Of a stretch of DNA of 64,000 nt, positions 2,312 through 14,247 are shown piece by piece (within the stretch, counting starts at the first letter, position 1; each line of letters begins with the position of its first letter). The stretch comes from Natribaculum luteum. GTDB lineage: Archaea > Halobacteriota > Halobacteria > Halobacteriales > Natrialbaceae. Where the stretch lies: positions 62,001 through 126,000 of the forward strand of contig NZ_CP095398.1 of assembly GCF_023008545.1 (NCBI RefSeq), given 5' to 3'. A model generated the notes under the pieces. The model saw nothing but the letters and a program-made list of their open reading frames with translations. It searched no databases and had not been told where the DNA came from. The translations under genes were made by a program, and so were the position numbers.

Positions 2312-2550
2312 ACGAGATGACCCGTAGTCGACGGCAATAATTCTGTTGACTCGACCGTTCTCGAGCGGCCGGGAGTGCAAACGACGTCGCTGACGTCGTA
2401 CCCATCGATTCGGGTCCGCTGACGACCGTCGTTCCGATCAGATTCTGATGGACACTGCACGATCTGATCCCGATTGACACCGCATTTCCGATGAACCAGT
2501 GTCCATCTCTCATACCGAATGAGGAAACCGATCGCTGTCACGCTCTATTT

Positions 2551-2566
2551 CACCGGAAACCCGGTG
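2551..2566 (+). repeat. origin recognition box (ORB 1)
   Basis: The core CACCGGAAACCCGGTG is preceded by TTT and followed by TGT. It has perfect 6-bp arms (CACCGG/CCGGTG) around AAAC. Lies downstream of the orc gene. A degenerate copy is visible around 2477-2495. Confidence 0.8.
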
Positions 2567-2597
2567 TGTTACAAATGGTGGTATTCGCCTCGAGAGA

Positions 2598-2613
2598 CAC
2601 CGCGTTTCCGGTG
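2598..2613 (-). repeat. origin recognition box (ORB 2)
   Basis: The core CACCGCGTTTCCGGTG is the inverted-orientation form of the box, facing ORB 1 at about 30 bp spacing. Confidence 0.75.
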
Positions 2614-2622
2614 AATTCACTC

Positions 2623-2754
2623 GAGGATTCTGGAAATCTCACCCGTCAACCCCGCAAATCAAACTCGACGACTCCGGAGATCTCACCAGACGACTCCGGA
2701 GATCTCACCAGACGACTCCGAAGAGCTCACCCGACGGCTCCATTGATCTCACTC
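2623..2754. repeat. six imperfect 22-bp tandem repeats at the 3' end of orc
   Basis: Units start at 2623, 2645, 2667, 2689, 2711 and 2733, exactly 22 bp apart. Units 3 and 4 are identical and the outer units decay progressively. Each carries a block like GACTCC-GGAGATCTCACC. The last unit overlaps the orc stop codon. They look like iterons beside the ORB pair, although their role is not shown. Confidence 0.8.
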
Positions 2755-3957
2755 GAGCGTCTCCACGAGCACGTTCTTGACGACCGATGGGTCCTCGAGG
2801 AGCGTGTGTTCGGTGTAGCTCCCTTCGGCGCTGCCGCCGCTGTGGCGGGACTGTTCGATCACGTCGAGAAACGCGTGTTCTTTCAGGAGGTCACGAACGC
2901 GACGGAGCGAGAGCGTATCCATCCCCTCCTGGCGGCAAATCTGTTCGTACACGTCGTAGATCCGGGTCGTCCGGAATCCCTCCTCGGGGGTGGCCGACTC
3001 GCCAGCGCCGTGCTCGAGAGAGAGAACGGTAAGCGCCTGCAAGACGTACCGGGAGTGAGGCGTCGACCCGCGGATGAGTTCCCGAAAGCGGTCGACTTCC
3101 GCTCGCTCTCTGGCCTGGACGACGAACTCCTCGCGAACCGTGTCGGCGTCCGTCGACTGCGCGATTTCGCCCGCGTACCGCAGAATGTCGATGGCCTTCC
3201 GCGCGTCGCCGTGTTCGCGAGCCGCGAGTGCTGCTGCGCGTGGGATGACCGCTTCCTCGAGGACGCCCTCGCGGAACGCGTCGCTGCGCGCCTCCATGAT
3301 GCTGTTGAGCTGGCTCGCGTTGTACGGCGGGAAGACGAACTCGCGTTCGCAGAGACTCGACTTGACCCGTTCGTCCATCCGATCTTTGTACTTGATCTTG
3401 TTGCTGATCCCGATGACGCCGATCTTGCAGTTGGTGAGCTTCCCAGCCTCCCCGGCACGAGAGAGTTGCATGAGGATCGCGTCGTCCTCGAGTTTGTCGA
3501 TCTCGTCGAGGATAATCAGGACGACGTCGTACGTCCGATCGAGGACGCGCCAGAGTCGTTTGTAGTAGGTGGCCGTGCTGATCCCTTTGTCGGGGATGTA
3601 CACGTCGCTTTCCTCGGTGTTGACCGTACTGGCGATCGTCTGCACTGCCTGCGTTTCGGTGGTGTCCTGGGCGCAGTCGACGTAGACGTACGCCGCCGTG
3701 ATTCCTTCCTCGTCGGCGGTATCGACGAGCCGACTCGAGACGTACTTCGCACAAAGCGACTTTCCAGTGCCGGTTTTCCCGTAGATCAAGACGTTGCTCG
3801 GACTCTGACCGAAGATAGCGGGGTTGACCGCGTTGGCGAGCTGGCCGATCTCCTCGTCGCGACCGACGATTCGTCCCTCGTCCGGCACGTGACTGATCTC
3901 GAGAAGTTCTTTGTTGACGAAAATTGGATCCTCCCGAATGAACAAATCGTCGGACAT
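2749..3957 (-). CDS. Orc1/Cdc6 family replication initiator
   Basis: This 402-residue initiator ATPase binds ORB elements and recruits MCM helicase at the origin. It has a Walker A motif GKTGTGKS near residue 65, a Walker B motif VLIILDEIDK near residue 160, and a sensor-type stretch GVIGISNKI. A C-terminal winged-helix region ends in a Leu/Arg-rich segment for DNA contact. The start chosen is the Met of MSDDLFIRED at 3957. In-frame codons upstream run through two ORB elements and translate them as HRK/GNT-like peptides, so they are not part of the protein. ORB boxes lie on both sides of the gene, and the promoter region contains ORBs 3 and 4, which suggests autoregulation by its own product. 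Confidence 0.95.
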   Translation of the reverse strand: MSDDLFIREDPIFVNKELLEISHVPDEGRIVGRDEEIGQLANAVNPAIFGQSPSNVLIYGKTGTGKSLCAKYVSSRLVDTADEEGITAAYVYVDCAQDTTETQAVQTIASTVNTEESDVYIPDKGISTATYYKRLWRVLDRTYDVVLIILDEIDKLEDDAILMQLSRAGEAGKLTNCKIGVIGISNKIKYKDRMDERVKSSLCEREFVFPPYNASQLNSIMEARSDAFREGVLEEAVIPRAAALAAREHGDARKAIDILRYAGEIAQSTDADTVREEFVVQARERAEVDRFRELIRGSTPHSRYVLQALTVLSLEHGAGESATPEEGFRTTRIYDVYEQICRQEGMDTLSLRRVRDLLKEHAFLDVIEQSRHSGGSAEGSYTEHTLLEDPSVVKNVLVETLE

Positions 3958-3966
3958 GTACCTGGA

Positions 3967-3982
3967 CACCGTATTTCCGGTG
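3967..3982 (-). repeat. origin recognition box (ORB 3)
   Basis: The core CACCGTATTTCCGGTG sits ten bases ahead of the orc start codon, in minus orientation. Occupation here would also affect orc transcription. Confidence 0.85.
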
Positions 3983-4013
3983 AAAGGTATTGAGGTTTTC
4001 GCCGAGACACACA

Positions 4014-4029
4014 CACCGTGTTTCCGGTG
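4014..4029 (-). repeat. origin recognition box (ORB 4)
   Basis: The core CACCGTGTTTCCGGTG is followed by AAAT, in minus orientation. Its start lies 47 bp from that of ORB 3. Confidence 0.85.
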
Positions 4030-4139
4030 AAATATGGCTCGAAGGGGTCTAGGCCCCAGAAGAAATGGGGGATTGTACTCATCGGAAAGAAGGTATCTAG
4101 TCGCACTAACCCGGTACGACATCGATTTGAGGGGATCGG

Positions 4140-4320
4140 GGAGCTATTCCAAGAGATAGAATTTCGAGGAGAGAACGTCTGTTCTACTGGAAATTACGAT
4201 TCGATGAAGCGACGAGCGTCGCTTCTTATTATACGTCGTGATTCAATCAGTGGGCTATACTCTCCACAACATAATAAAACTATGCTAGACAAGTACCGAT
4301 AGCGACTTACCAGTCGCATC
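4140..4320. other. AT-rich candidate duplex unwinding element
   Basis: This stretch is clearly richer in A/T than its surroundings, with runs such as CTTCTTATTATACG and CATAATAAAACTATG around 4228-4285. It lies between minus-facing ORB 4 and plus-facing ORB 5. Position and composition fit the unwinding element of the origin. Confidence 0.65.
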
Positions 4321-4431
4321 TTCCTCAATTGCATCTTTCTCAGTTGCATCCCTTCGACAGTTCCAGCACTTCGAGGATGATTCTCGCCGGCGCGGTTCCC
4401 CTGTATGACTCTCCAGTGCTTCGTCGCGTTT

Positions 4432-4447
4432 CATCGGAAACCCGGTG
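4432..4447 (+). repeat. origin recognition box (ORB 5)
   Basis: The core CATCGGAAACCCGGTG has one mismatch to the palindromic arm. First plus-oriented box after the AT-rich stretch. Confidence 0.8.
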
Positions 4448-4659
4448 TGTATGTCCAGCGGCTTTCTCGAGACCCAGCGAATTTCCGCTCGCCGACTCGT
4501 CGTTCAGGTTCGTTTCCGTTCAGGTCCGTTTCTCGAGTTCGATCGATCGCTCGAACGCCGACGATCACGGGGGGTCCTCGCGGATCCCGTACGTTCCGTT
4601 CACTCTTTCGTACTCTCACTCGTTCGCCAGGCGGCCGGTCGTTTCACTGGAGGTCGTTT

Positions 4660-4675
4660 CACCGGAAATCTGGTG
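4660..4675 (+). repeat. origin recognition box (ORB 6)
   Basis: The core CACCGGAAATCTGGTG is preceded by GTTT and followed by TGTGA. A half-box GTTTCACTGG precedes it at 4641. Confidence 0.85.
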
Positions 4676-4700
4676 TGTGACTCCTCGGGCTCTTTGCCGT

Positions 4701-4753
4701 TTTACAGGCTGTTAGGGGCGAATGCCACGGGGATTTGCCCCGAGGCAGTTCAC
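4701..4753 (+). repeat. solo structured repeat, copy B
   Basis: Same block order as copy A: TTTACAGGC, GAATGCC, then the hairpin GGGG-ATTTG-CCCC, then GAGGCAGTTCAC. The loop sequence differs from copy A while the four G:C pairs are kept, which points to a conserved folded RNA or DNA end. Lies between ORB 6 and ORB 7. Confidence 0.5.
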
Positions 4754-4817
4754 CAGAAGCGAGATTTCGAGCTGAGAACAGTACTAGGCGTTCTCTCTCC
4801 TACCGTCCTTACCATTT

Positions 4818-4833
4818 CACTGGAAATCCGGTG
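4818..4833 (+). repeat. origin recognition box (ORB 7)
   Basis: The core CACTGGAAATCCGGTG is preceded by ATTT and followed by TGG. Confidence 0.85.
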
Positions 4834-4909
4834 TGGTTCTGCCCCCGTTTTGTCTGCAGAATCTCCCTTTGCTCGAAGCAGTAGCCAACCAGCCACAGCG
4901 ATCGCCGTT

Positions 4910-4925
4910 CACCGGAAATCCGGTG
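4910..4925 (+). repeat. origin recognition box (ORB 8)
   Basis: The core CACCGGAAATCCGGTG has perfect 6-bp arms. It is the outermost plus-oriented box of the origin. Confidence 0.85.
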
Positions 4926-5524
4926 TCATCTTGAGACGGGCCACCTGCGTTCGAAAGTCCCCTCTTCGGAACTGCTGACTGGTGTATTTCTTCTTCAGAC
5001 GTCATTGTTCCGCGCGTATCGTCTCGCCACTGCTAGTATTTTTCCTTCAATTTCGACCTTCAATTTCGAAAATATCGCCTGATGAGGCGAATCGCAGGGC
5101 GTTCTGATCCGCCCTTTCGACTCCCTTCGGGCTCCAAACTGCCACGAATCGGCTCCCTCTGGGCTCCAAACTGCTGCGAACTGTCCTTGTCGCGCGTTTA
5201 ACCAACACAATAGTCGACCTCGCCGATTCGTTGGTTAAGTAGAGCATCTGCTGCTAGCCGTCGACGTGCAGCAGTTTACAGGCGGTCGAGGCGAATGCCC
5301 GGGCTCGACCCCGAGGCGATTCCGGACGAGAAGAGAAGGGAAGAGGAGGGAGAAGGGAGTCTCCTCGAGATTTCCGCGCGCTGATCTCTCCCCGACCGGC
5401 GTCGTGAACCCCCGCCTCACACCGTCGTGGCGAGAGATCGTCCGGAGTGGCAGATCGTCCTCGACTCGACGTCGTACAGGCAAGCACGGGATTTTCCCGC
5501 CGTGGACCGAACAGGTCTTTATGT
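4926..5524. other. gene-free region between the origin and the FNT gene, with short tandem repeats
   Basis: No supported gene. Visible structure: a 13-bp perfect tandem (CCTTCAATTTCGA at 5044 and 5057), a roughly 32-bp imperfect tandem near 5119-5180 sharing GGGCTCCAAACTGC, and solo repeat copy C at 5275. Confidence 0.6.
5275..5321 (+). repeat. solo structured repeat, copy C
   Basis: Third copy of the block series TTTACAGGCGGT, GCGAATGCC, GGG-CTCGA-CCCC, GAGGCGATT. It lacks any attached transposase gene. Confidence 0.5.
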
Positions 5525-10724: not shown

Positions 10725-11801
10725 TCACGGAAGCTCGAACTTCGAGTCGCGTTTCGTCACGACGACGTCCTCGAGGACGAGCACGTCGAGACCCATCCCG
10801 AAGAAGTCCTTGAGCGCCCCGGTCGGCGTGGTGACGATCGGTTCGGCGTGGTCGTTGAACGACGTGTTGAGGAGGACGGGAACGCCGGTCACGGTCTCGA
10901 ACTCGCGGAGTAACCGGTAGTATCTGGGATTCTGTTCCTCGCGAACGGTCTGGGGTCGGGTGGTGTCGTCTGCGGGGTGGAGAACCGCACCTAGCTCGTC
11001 GCGTTTCTCGGGCGCCACGTCGAACGTGTCGATCATATATGGGCTCGCTATCGCGTTCTCGAGGTACTCGTCGGCCGCCGATTCGACCATCGACGGCGCG
11101 AACGGTCGCCACTCCTCGCGGTGTTTGACGAAGCGATTCACCCGGTCGCGGGACGTCTCGGTTCGCGGATCGGCGAGGATGCTCCGGTTGCCGAGCGCTC
11201 GCGGCCCCAGCTCGAGTCGGCCCTGGAACCAGCCGACGAGCGCGCCGTCCGCGAGCAGTTCGGCGACCCGTCGCTCGAGGTTGGCAGGTTCGGCGTAGTC
11301 GACCTTGTTCGTCTCGAGCAGTTCCCGGACGTCGTCGGTCTCGTACTCGGGCCCCCAGTAGACGTTCGTCAGCGGGTCGACCTCGTCCGGACGGTAGTCG
11401 ATCCACCCCCCGCCGAGTGCGAGTCCGGCGTCGTGGGCGACGGGCTGGACGAACACGTCGTCGACGGCCGGCGATTCCCGGACACACTTGTTCAATTTGC
11501 AGTTGAGCGCGACCCCGCCCGCGAGACCGACGTTGCCGGTCCCGATTCGATCGACGTACTCGTCGACGATGGCCGTGACGGACTCCTCGAGGAGTTTCTG
11601 TGCCGTGTGCGCGAGGTCCTTCTCGAACTGGTCGAACTCCTCGGTCGTCGTCGAACGCGGTCGATCGAACAGGTCCTCGAGTGCCTTCACGCCGTGTTCG
11701 GTTCCCCAGCGGCCGGTGATCGGCGTCACGTCGTAGTCGACGCCGGTGTCGATACTGCGTCGGAGCCGACGCTCGATCCCGGGGTTGTCCTCGCCGTAGG
11801 G
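10725..11801 (-). pseudogene. carbamoyltransferase (NodU/CmcH family), C-terminal part, separated by IS607 insertion
   Basis: This half encodes the last 358 residues of a NodU-type carbamoyltransferase, from PYGEDNPGIERR through the GLAGGVALNCKLN motif and the signature LELGPRALGNRSILADPR to the C-terminus KRDSKFELP. The frame is clean and ends at 10725. The N-terminal half is at 14260-14916, on the other side of the IS607 element. Family members transfer carbamoyl from carbamoyl phosphate to a sugar or antibiotic hydroxyl. Read across the junction, the codon CCC at 11799-11801 joins TGC (14260) in frame, giving MGLAPYGED, the expected family motif. The gene is interrupted but not otherwise damaged. 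Confidence 0.9.
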
Positions 11802-11827
11802 TTCGTAACTGTTTCTGAATTCCGAAT

Positions 11828-11834
11828 CTTTAAG
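11828..11834 (+). promoter_or_regulatory. TATA-like box of the IS607 tnpA gene
   Basis: CTTTAAG lies inside the left end of the element. Transcription would begin about 25 nt downstream, which places the ATG at 11865, not the one at 11844, first in the message. Confidence 0.45.
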
Positions 11835-11864
11835 CAGTAATAAATGGTGATTAGCAACAACACG

Positions 11865-12470
11865 ATGCCACGGTCGTACGCCATCGGCGAGTTCGCGGAG
11901 GAACTTGGCGTCCACCCCGAAACTGTCAAACGGTGGTGTCGAAACGGCGACCTTGACTACACACGCACGCCCGGCGGCGACCGACGCATCCCACACCGTG
12001 AACTCCTCCGCCTCGCTGGTGATGCTCGCCCCCGCGACCACGTCGCGCTCTACGCCCGCGTCTCCAGTCACGGACAGAAAGACAACGGCGACCTTGATCG
12101 GCAACTCGACCGTCTTCGAGACCACGCTCACGACAACGGATGGACGGTCGAAACCACCTACACAGACGTCGGCAGCGGTCTCGACCAACTCCTCGACGAC
12201 GTACAAGACAGCGACTACGGCCGCGTCCTCGTCACCTACGAGGACAGACTCACCCGCTTTGGCTTCTCCTACCTCGAACGCCTTCTCGACCACCACGGCG
12301 TCACCATCACCGTCATCGAAGACGAGACGGACAAAACCGCACAGGAAGAACTCGTCGACGACCTCATCAAGCTCGTCGCCAGCTTCTCCAGCAAGCTCTA
12401 CGGAATGCGATCCAGCAAAAAACAACAGGTCGTCAACGCCGTCGAATCCGAGGTGAACCCCGATGACTGA
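11865..12470 (+). CDS. tnpA: IS607 TnpA serine recombinase
   Basis: This 201-residue transposase has an N-terminal MerR-like helix-turn-helix (YAIGEFAEELGVHPETVKRW, then TRTPGGDRRIP). A resolvase-type catalytic domain follows, starting with ALYARVSSHGQ, where the Ser of RVSS is the nucleophile. The Arg-containing motif YEDRLTRFGF is the second catalytic block. The protein moves the element by cutting at a GG core. The start at 11865 is preferred over 11844 because of the TATA spacing. The gene overlaps tnpB by the sequence ATGACTGA, so the two are translationally coupled. Confidence 0.93.
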   Translation: MPRSYAIGEFAEELGVHPETVKRWCRNGDLDYTRTPGGDRRIPHRELLRLAGDARPRDHVALYARVSSHGQKDNGDLDRQLDRLRDHAHDNGWTVETTYTDVGSGLDQLLDDVQDSDYGRVLVTYEDRLTRFGFSYLERLLDHHGVTITVIEDETDKTAQEELVDDLIKLVASFSSKLYGMRSSKKQQVVNAVESEVNPDD

Positions 12471-14247
12471 CCACCTCTCGCTGCCCCTCCGACTGCCGGA
12501 GACACACCACGACGCACACGAACGGTTAGACGAGTTCGTCCAACACGTCGCCACCCGCATCCTCCACCTCCGCTGGACGCCGGAATACCTCGACGACATC
12601 CACGACGCCGACTATCAGGCGTGGACGTACTTCGACGAACACCAACCATTCGAAGAACTCGACGACCACGCCCTCTACCACTCCATCCACCACGGTGAAG
12701 ATCCGCCGGCGGATTTCGAACTGTACGTACCGTCACGTATCCGGCGATGCATCCTACAGAAAGTCGGAGAAACCCTGCGGAGCCACGCCGATCGCCGCGA
12801 CGCCTTCTACGCCATCCAGCGCGTCCTCCCCACGCACAAAATCCGCCGAATACACCGTCGCCGCATCAAAGAAGAACTGTGGGAGGACGGCGAGTACCTC
12901 TCCGGGGGCTACGTTGATGTTCTCATCGACCAACTCAACACGTACTACGACCGCCACGGAAGGTATCCGGACACGTATTTCGAGTTGCAAGACCCGCCGG
13001 AGTACAGCAACGGCGCGTTGCCGTACTCGGCGGACGACGGCCCCACGAGCGGCCAAGCCGTCAACTACCACTACGACGAAAACGAGCAGTCGGTGACGGT
13101 GAAGGTGAAGGTGAAAACCCCTGACACTGTGACTCCCGAAAGTCGTGGGGACTGGTCGTGGCACGAACACGACCTCGCCGGGTACGACGCCTTCTACACG
13201 CTCACCCAGCACGGCTCTCTGTCAGCCCCAGAGTTCCAATCCACGTGGCGCAAGAACGGCGACCACATCCACGAACTCTCGTTTCCCGTCGAAGTCGATA
13301 ATGCCGACACAGACGGTGATGCGGAACGCGTGTTGGCGCTCGACGCCGGGATACGGAAGGACGTGACCGCGGTCGTCGTTGAGGAGACTGGCAAACAGGT
13401 GTCGCGGCCGCATTTCGTTCGAGTTACTGATCGTGACGGGATGCGCCGACGGCACCGGGAGCGACAGCGGTTAAACGATCAGTTGGCGGAACTTCGCCGG
13501 AGTGGGCGGGATCACACGGCAGCGTTCAAAACGGTGCAGGCAGAGTACGAACGAGTGAACACCAAAATCCAGCACAAGCGCGAGCAGTTGACACATGATG
13601 TGGCGAATCAGGTCGTCGCGCTCGCCTTGGTGTACGACGTGGACGCCGTGGTTCACGAGGATTTGCGGTCGCTGTCCCCACCGTCTGGTGAAGGTGGGTT
13701 GTCGTGGGAGCTGTCGAGTTGGGCGCGGCGCGAGATCGTCGAGAAGATCGAGTACCGCTGCGAGTACGTTGGCGTGGACGTGGATCGGGTGTACCCGCAG
13801 GGGACGAGTCGGTCGTGTCCGCGTTGTGGTTCGACTGGCCATACGTGCAAGTCTCCCGACCACACGGAGGAGGTGTGGTGGGGTGGGCACTTCCGCTGCG
13901 ACAACGCTCGGTGCGGGTTTGAAGGTGATCGAGATTACATCGCGGCGGTGAACGTGGCTCGCGTGTTCTTCAGCGAGATGGATGGACTGGATCACGGTTT
14001 CATGTCCTCCTATACGGGGGATTCGGAAACCGTGCCAGCTCGCCGTTCCGTTGGCACGCGGCTCGCGTTCGGGCGTGGCGTTGTTGCCTACGAGCCCGAA
14101 CAGACAGGGGCGACCGCTGGTGGTGGGTCGGCTGTCATAACGCCCGCTGTCGCCCTGTCAGAGTCGAATGCGGATGGCGGTGATGGGTGTGGCCCAGCCA
14201 CCCGTCAGTACACCCAATTCCAACGGGTTACTGCTGAACACTGCTGA
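12463..14247 (+). CDS. tnpB: TnpB RNA-guided nuclease of the IS607 element
   Basis: This 594-residue protein has a RuvC-like nuclease core with its three acidic positions visible: D294 in VLALDAG, E399 in VVHEDLRSL and the Asp of GDRDYIAAVNVAR near 489-491. Between the last two lies a four-cysteine zinc finger, CPRC (452-455) and CDNARC (479-484). The catalytic set is therefore intact. After the nuclease core, a tail of about 90 residues (from 505) is rich in Gly/Ser/Thr and overlaps the DNA expected to encode the guide scaffold RNA. TnpB proteins cut DNA matching the sequence that flanks the element's right end and promote element retention. Confidence 0.92.
   Translation: MTDHLSLPLRLPETHHDAHERLDEFVQHVATRILHLRWTPEYLDDIHDADYQAWTYFDEHQPFEELDDHALYHSIHHGEDPPADFELYVPSRIRRCILQKVGETLRSHADRRDAFYAIQRVLPTHKIRRIHRRRIKEELWEDGEYLSGGYVDVLIDQLNTYYDRHGRYPDTYFELQDPPEYSNGALPYSADDGPTSGQAVNYHYDENEQSVTVKVKVKTPDTVTPESRGDWSWHEHDLAGYDAFYTLTQHGSLSAPEFQSTWRKNGDHIHELSFPVEVDNADTDGDAERVLALDAGIRKDVTAVVVEETGKQVSRPHFVRVTDRDGMRRRHRERQRLNDQLAELRRSGRDHTAAFKTVQAEYERVNTKIQHKREQLTHDVANQVVALALVYDVDAVVHEDLRSLSPPSGEGGLSWELSSWARREIVEKIEYRCEYVGVDVDRVYPQGTSRSCPRCGSTGHTCKSPDHTEEVWWGGHFRCDNARCGFEGDRDYIAAVNVARVFFSEMDGLDHGFMSSYTGDSETVPARRSVGTRLAFGRGVVAYEPEQTGATAGGGSAVITPAVALSESNADGGDGCGPATRQYTQFQRVTAEHC

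Follow-up and report, generated by a model that had tools for sequence, protein, structure and literature searches.

A probable Orc1/Cdc6-dependent replication origin with polar ORB arrays on a haloarchaeal secondary replicon, with a second ORB-like element conserved among its relatives

Does the DNA around an orc1/cdc6 gene in an uncharacterised haloarchaeon act as a replication origin, and can an initiator read its boxes in either direction? We analysed a stretch of 64,000 nucleotides (the window) that covers bases 62001-126000 of C2, an 861,699-bp contig and one of three in a genome of 4.61 Mb. C2 is a large secondary replicon and not the main chromosome, since its closest records, from Natribaculum longum (760 kb) and N. 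breve (637 kb), are secondary replicons whose Cdc6 proteins are 97.5% identical to that of the window; the host is a haloarchaeon of this genus or near it. The original prediction, that of a haloarchaeal origin in which inverted ORB arrays surround an AT-rich core next to orc1/cdc6, is supported here by the motif, the gene family and the conservation seen in 71 distinct loci.

Searches with the box pattern CACYGGAAAYNYGGTGT returned 11 matches at up to one mismatch in the 4.61 Mb genome, nine of which lie within 2.45 kb around orc1/cdc6 (window 2477-4926). As a control, the backwards pattern gave four matches in the whole genome at up to two mismatches, and the reversed 18-base pattern gave none at up to one mismatch in 61 genomes. 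Consensus ORBs are repeated and clustered here beyond chance, as in ORB-type origins. Two minus-strand boxes face the gene, one at 3966..3982, centred 17 bp upstream of the start codon, and an inner one at 4013..4029 that has no mismatches to the published Halobacteriaceae ORB expression. Four distal boxes on the plus strand point away from the gene, at 4432..4448 (CATCGGAAACCCGGTGT; one mismatch to CACYGGAAAYNYGGTGT), 4660..4676 (invariant in N. longum and N. breve), 4818..4834 (CACTGGAAATCCGGTGT) and 4910..4926 (a pattern match); the predicted set of two minus-facing and four plus-facing boxes is thereby confirmed. A weak plus-facing box with its core at about 4080..4096 (CATCGGAAAGAAGGTAT) has its centre 66 bp from that of the inner minus box and scores 6.7 bits, compared with a 99th percentile of -8.4 for shuffled sequence. 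Behind the gene, boxes at 2551..2567 (plus) and 2597..2613 (minus) correspond to an extra pair that had been described as divergent; the pair exists but is convergent, with the GGTGT ends of its members facing each other. A third, weaker box behind cdc6 occupies 2477..2493 on the minus strand (CATCGGAAATGCGGTGT). The earlier list of boxes did not include this third box, the weak box at 4080 or a G-run element at 4056-4074. Two lone ORBs of the same type are found on C2 far from the origin (354321-354337 and 584719-584735), the first being a perfect match, for which a rough estimate gives ~0.02 expected.

The orc1/cdc6 gene (2749..3957, minus strand) encodes 402 aa with an AAA+ domain, a Cdc6 lid and a C-terminal winged helix (Pfam AAA, Cdc6_lid and Cdc6_C). 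The product matches TIGR02928 (E 1.7e-127), and its structural homologues include PDB 2qby_A (E 2.4e-63) and 2v1u_A (E 6.2e-61). Judged from its sequence, this is a typical Orc1/Cdc6 initiator with clear homology to solved ORB-binding Orc1 proteins, and the boxes thus adjoin the kind of gene, with AAA+ and winged-helix domains, that marks an archaeal ORB-type origin. Its orthologues are mostly encoded on plasmids and secondary replicons, many of them on small plasmids; in Haloarcula hispanica, each replicon needs one active ori-cdc6 pair (PMC3936714). Immediately behind cdc6, 22-bp tandem repeats (GACGACTCCGGAGATCTCACCA) occupy window 2617-2752, with more copies in N. breve; these are possibly spacer or iteron-like repeats. 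Elsewhere in the window, a carbamoyltransferase frame (10728-12599) has an incomplete N-terminal domain and is overlapped on the opposite strand by a gene for a MerR-type HTH and serine resolvase (11844-12470, IS607-type transposase-like), which suggests an insertion into or beside the carbamoyltransferase gene.

Between the two arrays, the gap (about 4033-4422) has 48% GC, compared with 59% over the replicon and 61% within the gene. At this scale the AT-richness is modest, with ~4.7% of C2 400-mers equalling the whole gap in AT content. The AT-richest 60 bp (about 4224-4283) have 33% GC, a value as low as that of only 0.7% of C2 60-mers. They fall within an AT-rich stretch at 4150..4310 that we consider a candidate duplex-unwinding element and that contains ATAATAAAACTAT, conserved in three Natribaculum-type replicons. 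ORBs of opposite polarity hence flank an AT-rich region, as in archaeal ORB-type origins, albeit one of modest AT-richness over the gap as a whole.

To follow this arrangement among relatives, orthologues (71-98% identity) were taken from three sources, namely 61 related genomes, a plasmid collection and a set with one genome per species. A gene-facing box is centred 17-38 bp upstream of the start codon in all 71 distinct loci. Beyond it there is usually another box facing the gene, then an AT-rich gap and an away-facing distal array; a distal away-facing box was detected in 63 of the 68 loci with enough upstream sequence, and boxes behind cdc6 in 57/71. Among the 61 relatives, three or more boxes occur in every genome with an orthologue, and G019 is the only genome lacking it that has as many. 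In G019, four boxes are clustered at C6:59125-59542 in the absence of the orthologous Cdc6, with another cdc6 (36% identity) ~10 kb away; they may be an orphan origin remnant or reflect box sharing between initiators. Another locus (L192; GL982569.1 29917-38104) comes from a scaffold that has been assigned to the nanohaloarchaeon Candidatus Nanosalinarum J07AB56, and its cdc6, at about positions 3498-4694 of the locus, shows 71% identity. It also has both gene-facing boxes and, at 52-bp spacing, the second element described below, and is adjoined by a ParA-like gene and another cdc6. Either a plasmid was transferred to the symbiont, or the scaffold is mis-binned or chimeric.

Because nine boxes are packed into 2.45 kb compared with two elsewhere in 4.6 Mb, and because the layout is conserved in 71 loci and the boxes co-occur with the orthologue among the 61 relatives, we infer that the locus is an Orc1/Cdc6-dependent replication origin of the 861,699-bp secondary replicon, with a probability of about 0.86. 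By analogy with work on Sulfolobus and Haloarcula hispanica, Cdc6 from the adjacent gene would bind each polar ORB as a monomer with a defined orientation. Initiators of opposite polarity would then flank the AT-rich ~4150-4310, positioned on one side by the boxes toward the gene (3966, 4013) and on the other by the away-facing ones (weak at ~4080, strong at 4432-4926). This AT-rich DNA would be the site of duplex opening and of MCM helicase loading in both directions. Such a scheme would be consistent with the literature, where flanking ORBs of opposite polarity are believed to direct helicase loading both ways (PMC6742236; PMC12141716). Titration of Cdc6 is the probable role of the boxes behind the gene, which would so damp re-initiation. 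With exact boxes and polarity now available for a likely secondary-replicon origin of an uncharacterised haloarchaeon, the locus should be useful for shuttle vectors.

It is conceivable that this origin is dormant or secondary, with boxes and Cdc6 intact on a replicon that normally fires elsewhere, for example near a second cdc6 gene that C2 carries at C2:504105 (34% identity to the window gene). In H. hispanica, the predicted ORB origins oriC4 and oriC5 had no ARS activity (PMC3528665). A dormant origin would also agree with the silence of the nucleotide skew at the locus. The GC-skew analysis suggested along with the original prediction turned out to be uninformative on C2, as GC and AT skew over the whole 861,699 bp showed no arm asymmetry or inflection at the locus (permutation p = 0.35), and the result therefore speaks neither for nor against an origin. 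We nevertheless regard dormancy as improbable, considering that different genera retain the number of boxes, their polarity and their flanks, that many relatives carry the locus on small plasmids, and that the patterns used revealed no ORB-like boxes next to the C2:504 kb cdc6. Of the further cdc6 genes in the genome, those at C1:2930630 (GTCGGAAACGTGGGGTGGG) and C1:1383985 have distinct ORB families; beside the remaining ones, these patterns gave no ORB-like boxes or isolated matches only.

With regard to regulation, a promoter-like CGAAAC..T.AAG block is found just upstream of the start-proximal box. The position of the box just downstream of this block suggests autorepression, and the box is probably an autoregulatory site as well as an origin box; Cdc6 bound 17 bp upstream of the start codon would probably repress its own gene. 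Taken further, a box over the cdc6 start region in 71/71 loci, adjoined by the promoter-like block, could mean that the boxes serve chiefly as an operator array through which cdc6 is autoregulated, and not as an origin. This is very unlikely, however, given that most boxes are 400-1500 bp off with their outward orientation fixed, and that the spacing between the inner box and the second element is constant while the distance to cdc6 varies sixfold.

The full conserved box reads TTTCACCGGAAAC-NYGGTGTG(TGTG) (241 sites, 27 loci). The original prediction described the box as nearly palindromic, which holds for the arms CACCG...CGGTG but not for the full conserved length, which exceeds that first described and lacks symmetry at the 5' TTT, in the central AAAC and at the 3' TGT. 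We rejected the near-palindrome as a peculiarity of this locus, since inverted repeats are a general property of ORBs (PMC6742236). Leave-one-genome-out PWM scoring of 240 boxes gave a mean of 33 bits forward and -20 bits when reversed about the same dyad, with a smallest difference of 29, although this polarity is partly built in by the oriented seed pattern. The 5' TT (positions -1 and 0), which is outside the seed, is conserved at 92-96%. Position-dependent orientation is evidence for polarity that is independent of the PWM scores: across the 71 distinct loci, those strong boxes that lie no more than 60 bp from the cdc6 start point toward the gene in 68 cases and away in none, those 400-800 bp upstream point away in 72 and toward in none, and at 800-1500 bp the counts are 125 away and 5 toward. 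Box polarity is under strong constraint throughout the initiator family. This accords with structural work in which monomers of Orc1/Cdc6 make asymmetric contacts with the palindromic ORB repeat and thus lie in one direction (PMC6742236). That the near-palindromic boxes let the initiator bind in either direction, as their complementary arms CACCG and CGGTG had suggested, is therefore scarcely credible, since every box scores at least 29 bits better forward (a gap owed in part to the oriented seed), orientation is conserved by position and the known Orc1-ORB complexes are directional.

Aligning the loci on the inner gene-facing box revealed a second, ORB-like motif with a G-string (CCAGNNGAAACGGGGGTT) at a spacing of 52 +/- 1 bp, which occurs at up to 4 mismatches of 12 in 56/71 loci. 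The window has a degenerate copy of this consensus at 4056..4074 on the plus strand (CCAGAAGAAATGGGGGATT; 2 mismatches of 12), about 52 bp from the inner minus box. At up to 3 mismatches, the element accompanies 50/74 inner boxes compared with 0/71 start-proximal boxes, 5/265 away-facing upstream boxes, 1/170 downstream boxes and 56/14,200 random positions. Read on the opposite strand it is GGGGTCCAGNNGAAACGGGGGTT, which is near the canonical archaeal ORB (common motif TCCA[CG]T[TG]GAAA[TC][GA]AAGGGGT) and two bases shorter before the G-run. The inner box is located at -64 to -388 from cdc6 and the second element moves with it, so the element belongs to the origin core and not to the promoter. 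Shared descent alone is insufficient to account for it, because the surrounding spacer is hardly conserved. A weak away-facing box is also present 62-69 bp from the inner box in 21/56 loci. The G-run of the element is broken in N. breve and N. longum, and the element is therefore not strictly required in Natribaculum. Scanning the 61 genomes gave matches at this origin in about ten relatives plus stray ones elsewhere, one of them ~21 kb from oriC1 in the genome of the window; given these stray matches, the scan does not point to a particular binding protein.

As for function, comparison with better-studied origins offers several options. The second element may supply the G-string function that boxes of this family lack, it may be an enhancer like the G-rich repeat of H. 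hispanica oriC1, or it may bind another initiator, as at Sulfolobus oriC2. A more speculative proposal, which we consider unlikely but worth stating, is that this family of plasmid origins is heterotypic, with the oriC1-like CCAGNNGAAACGGGGGTT placed between the family's own ORBs at a fixed helical phase and bound by a different initiator, such as the chromosomal Cdc6A, or by another origin factor. The secondary replicon would then fire in step with the initiation machinery of the chromosome. In any case, the element offers a concrete starting point for testing how secondary replicons and the main chromosome might be coordinated.

Known systems place the locus as an ordinary representative of an established archaeal origin type, with one apparently undescribed conserved element. 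Among the predicted orc/cdc6-associated plasmid origins of Wu et al. 2012 (PMC3528665), a study that counts origin-associated cdc6 genes on replicons of Halopiger xanaduensis, Natrialba magadii and Haloterrigena turkmenica, the replicons of these three species encode Cdc6 orthologues (80-89% identity), and our scan found the same boxes and layout at their loci as in the window. The main text of that study reports no second element at fixed spacing, and the element is apparently undescribed in the main texts of the origin papers to which the comparison was confined. Against the Ori-Finder 2 motif for Halobacteriaceae (TT[TC]CACC[GCT]GAAAC[GA][AC][GA]G[GT]G[GT]; PMC4164010), 240 boxes have 0-4 mismatches of 20, with 0 for the inner window box and 1-3 for the other window boxes; boxes of the present family differ in preferring N at position 14 and C/T at position 15.

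The H. hispanica oriC2-cdc6E system (PMC3936714) resembles the window in having ORBs both upstream and downstream of cdc6. As at oriC2D, boxes are found directly behind cdc6 in the window (2477, 2551 and 2597), though oriC2D has 11 downstream boxes compared with three here and its box sequence is different. In H. hispanica, these ORBs behind cdc6E lower origin activity, probably by titration (PMC3936714). Haloarchaeal oriC1-cdc6A shares with the window inverted ORBs that flank an AT-rich stretch. Its boxes end in a 3' G-string, reported as essential in H. hispanica oriC1, where a G-rich repeat inside the ORBs acts as an enhancer; boxes of the window family are without it (post-dyad consensus NYGGTGTGTGTG, no G-run in 241 sites), and the G-run is instead located in the separate second element. 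The locus itself was rejected as oriC1, as the oriC1-type cdc6 of this genome is at C1:1383985-1385400 and the window is on C2 with a different cdc6. Boxes of the oriC1 type (canonical TCCA..GAAAC..GGGG) occur at C1:1384906-1386479, e.g., TCCAGTTGAAACGAAGGGG. That cdc6 lies in a 613-aa frame whose Cdc6 match is split by ~290 bp (~97 codons), and a perfect canonical ORB (C1:1384906-1384924) is found inside this insertion. More ORBs of this type and one second-element match occur within ~100 kb of oriC1 (C1:1372993, 1407162 and 1472481-1481162). In another phylum and with other boxes, Sulfolobus oriC1 and oriC2 likewise have ORBs of opposite polarity flanking a DUE, as in the window. Two distinct initiators, Orc1-1 and Orc1-3, occupy Sulfolobus oriC2 (PMC6742236), an arrangement that the second element of the window family might resemble.
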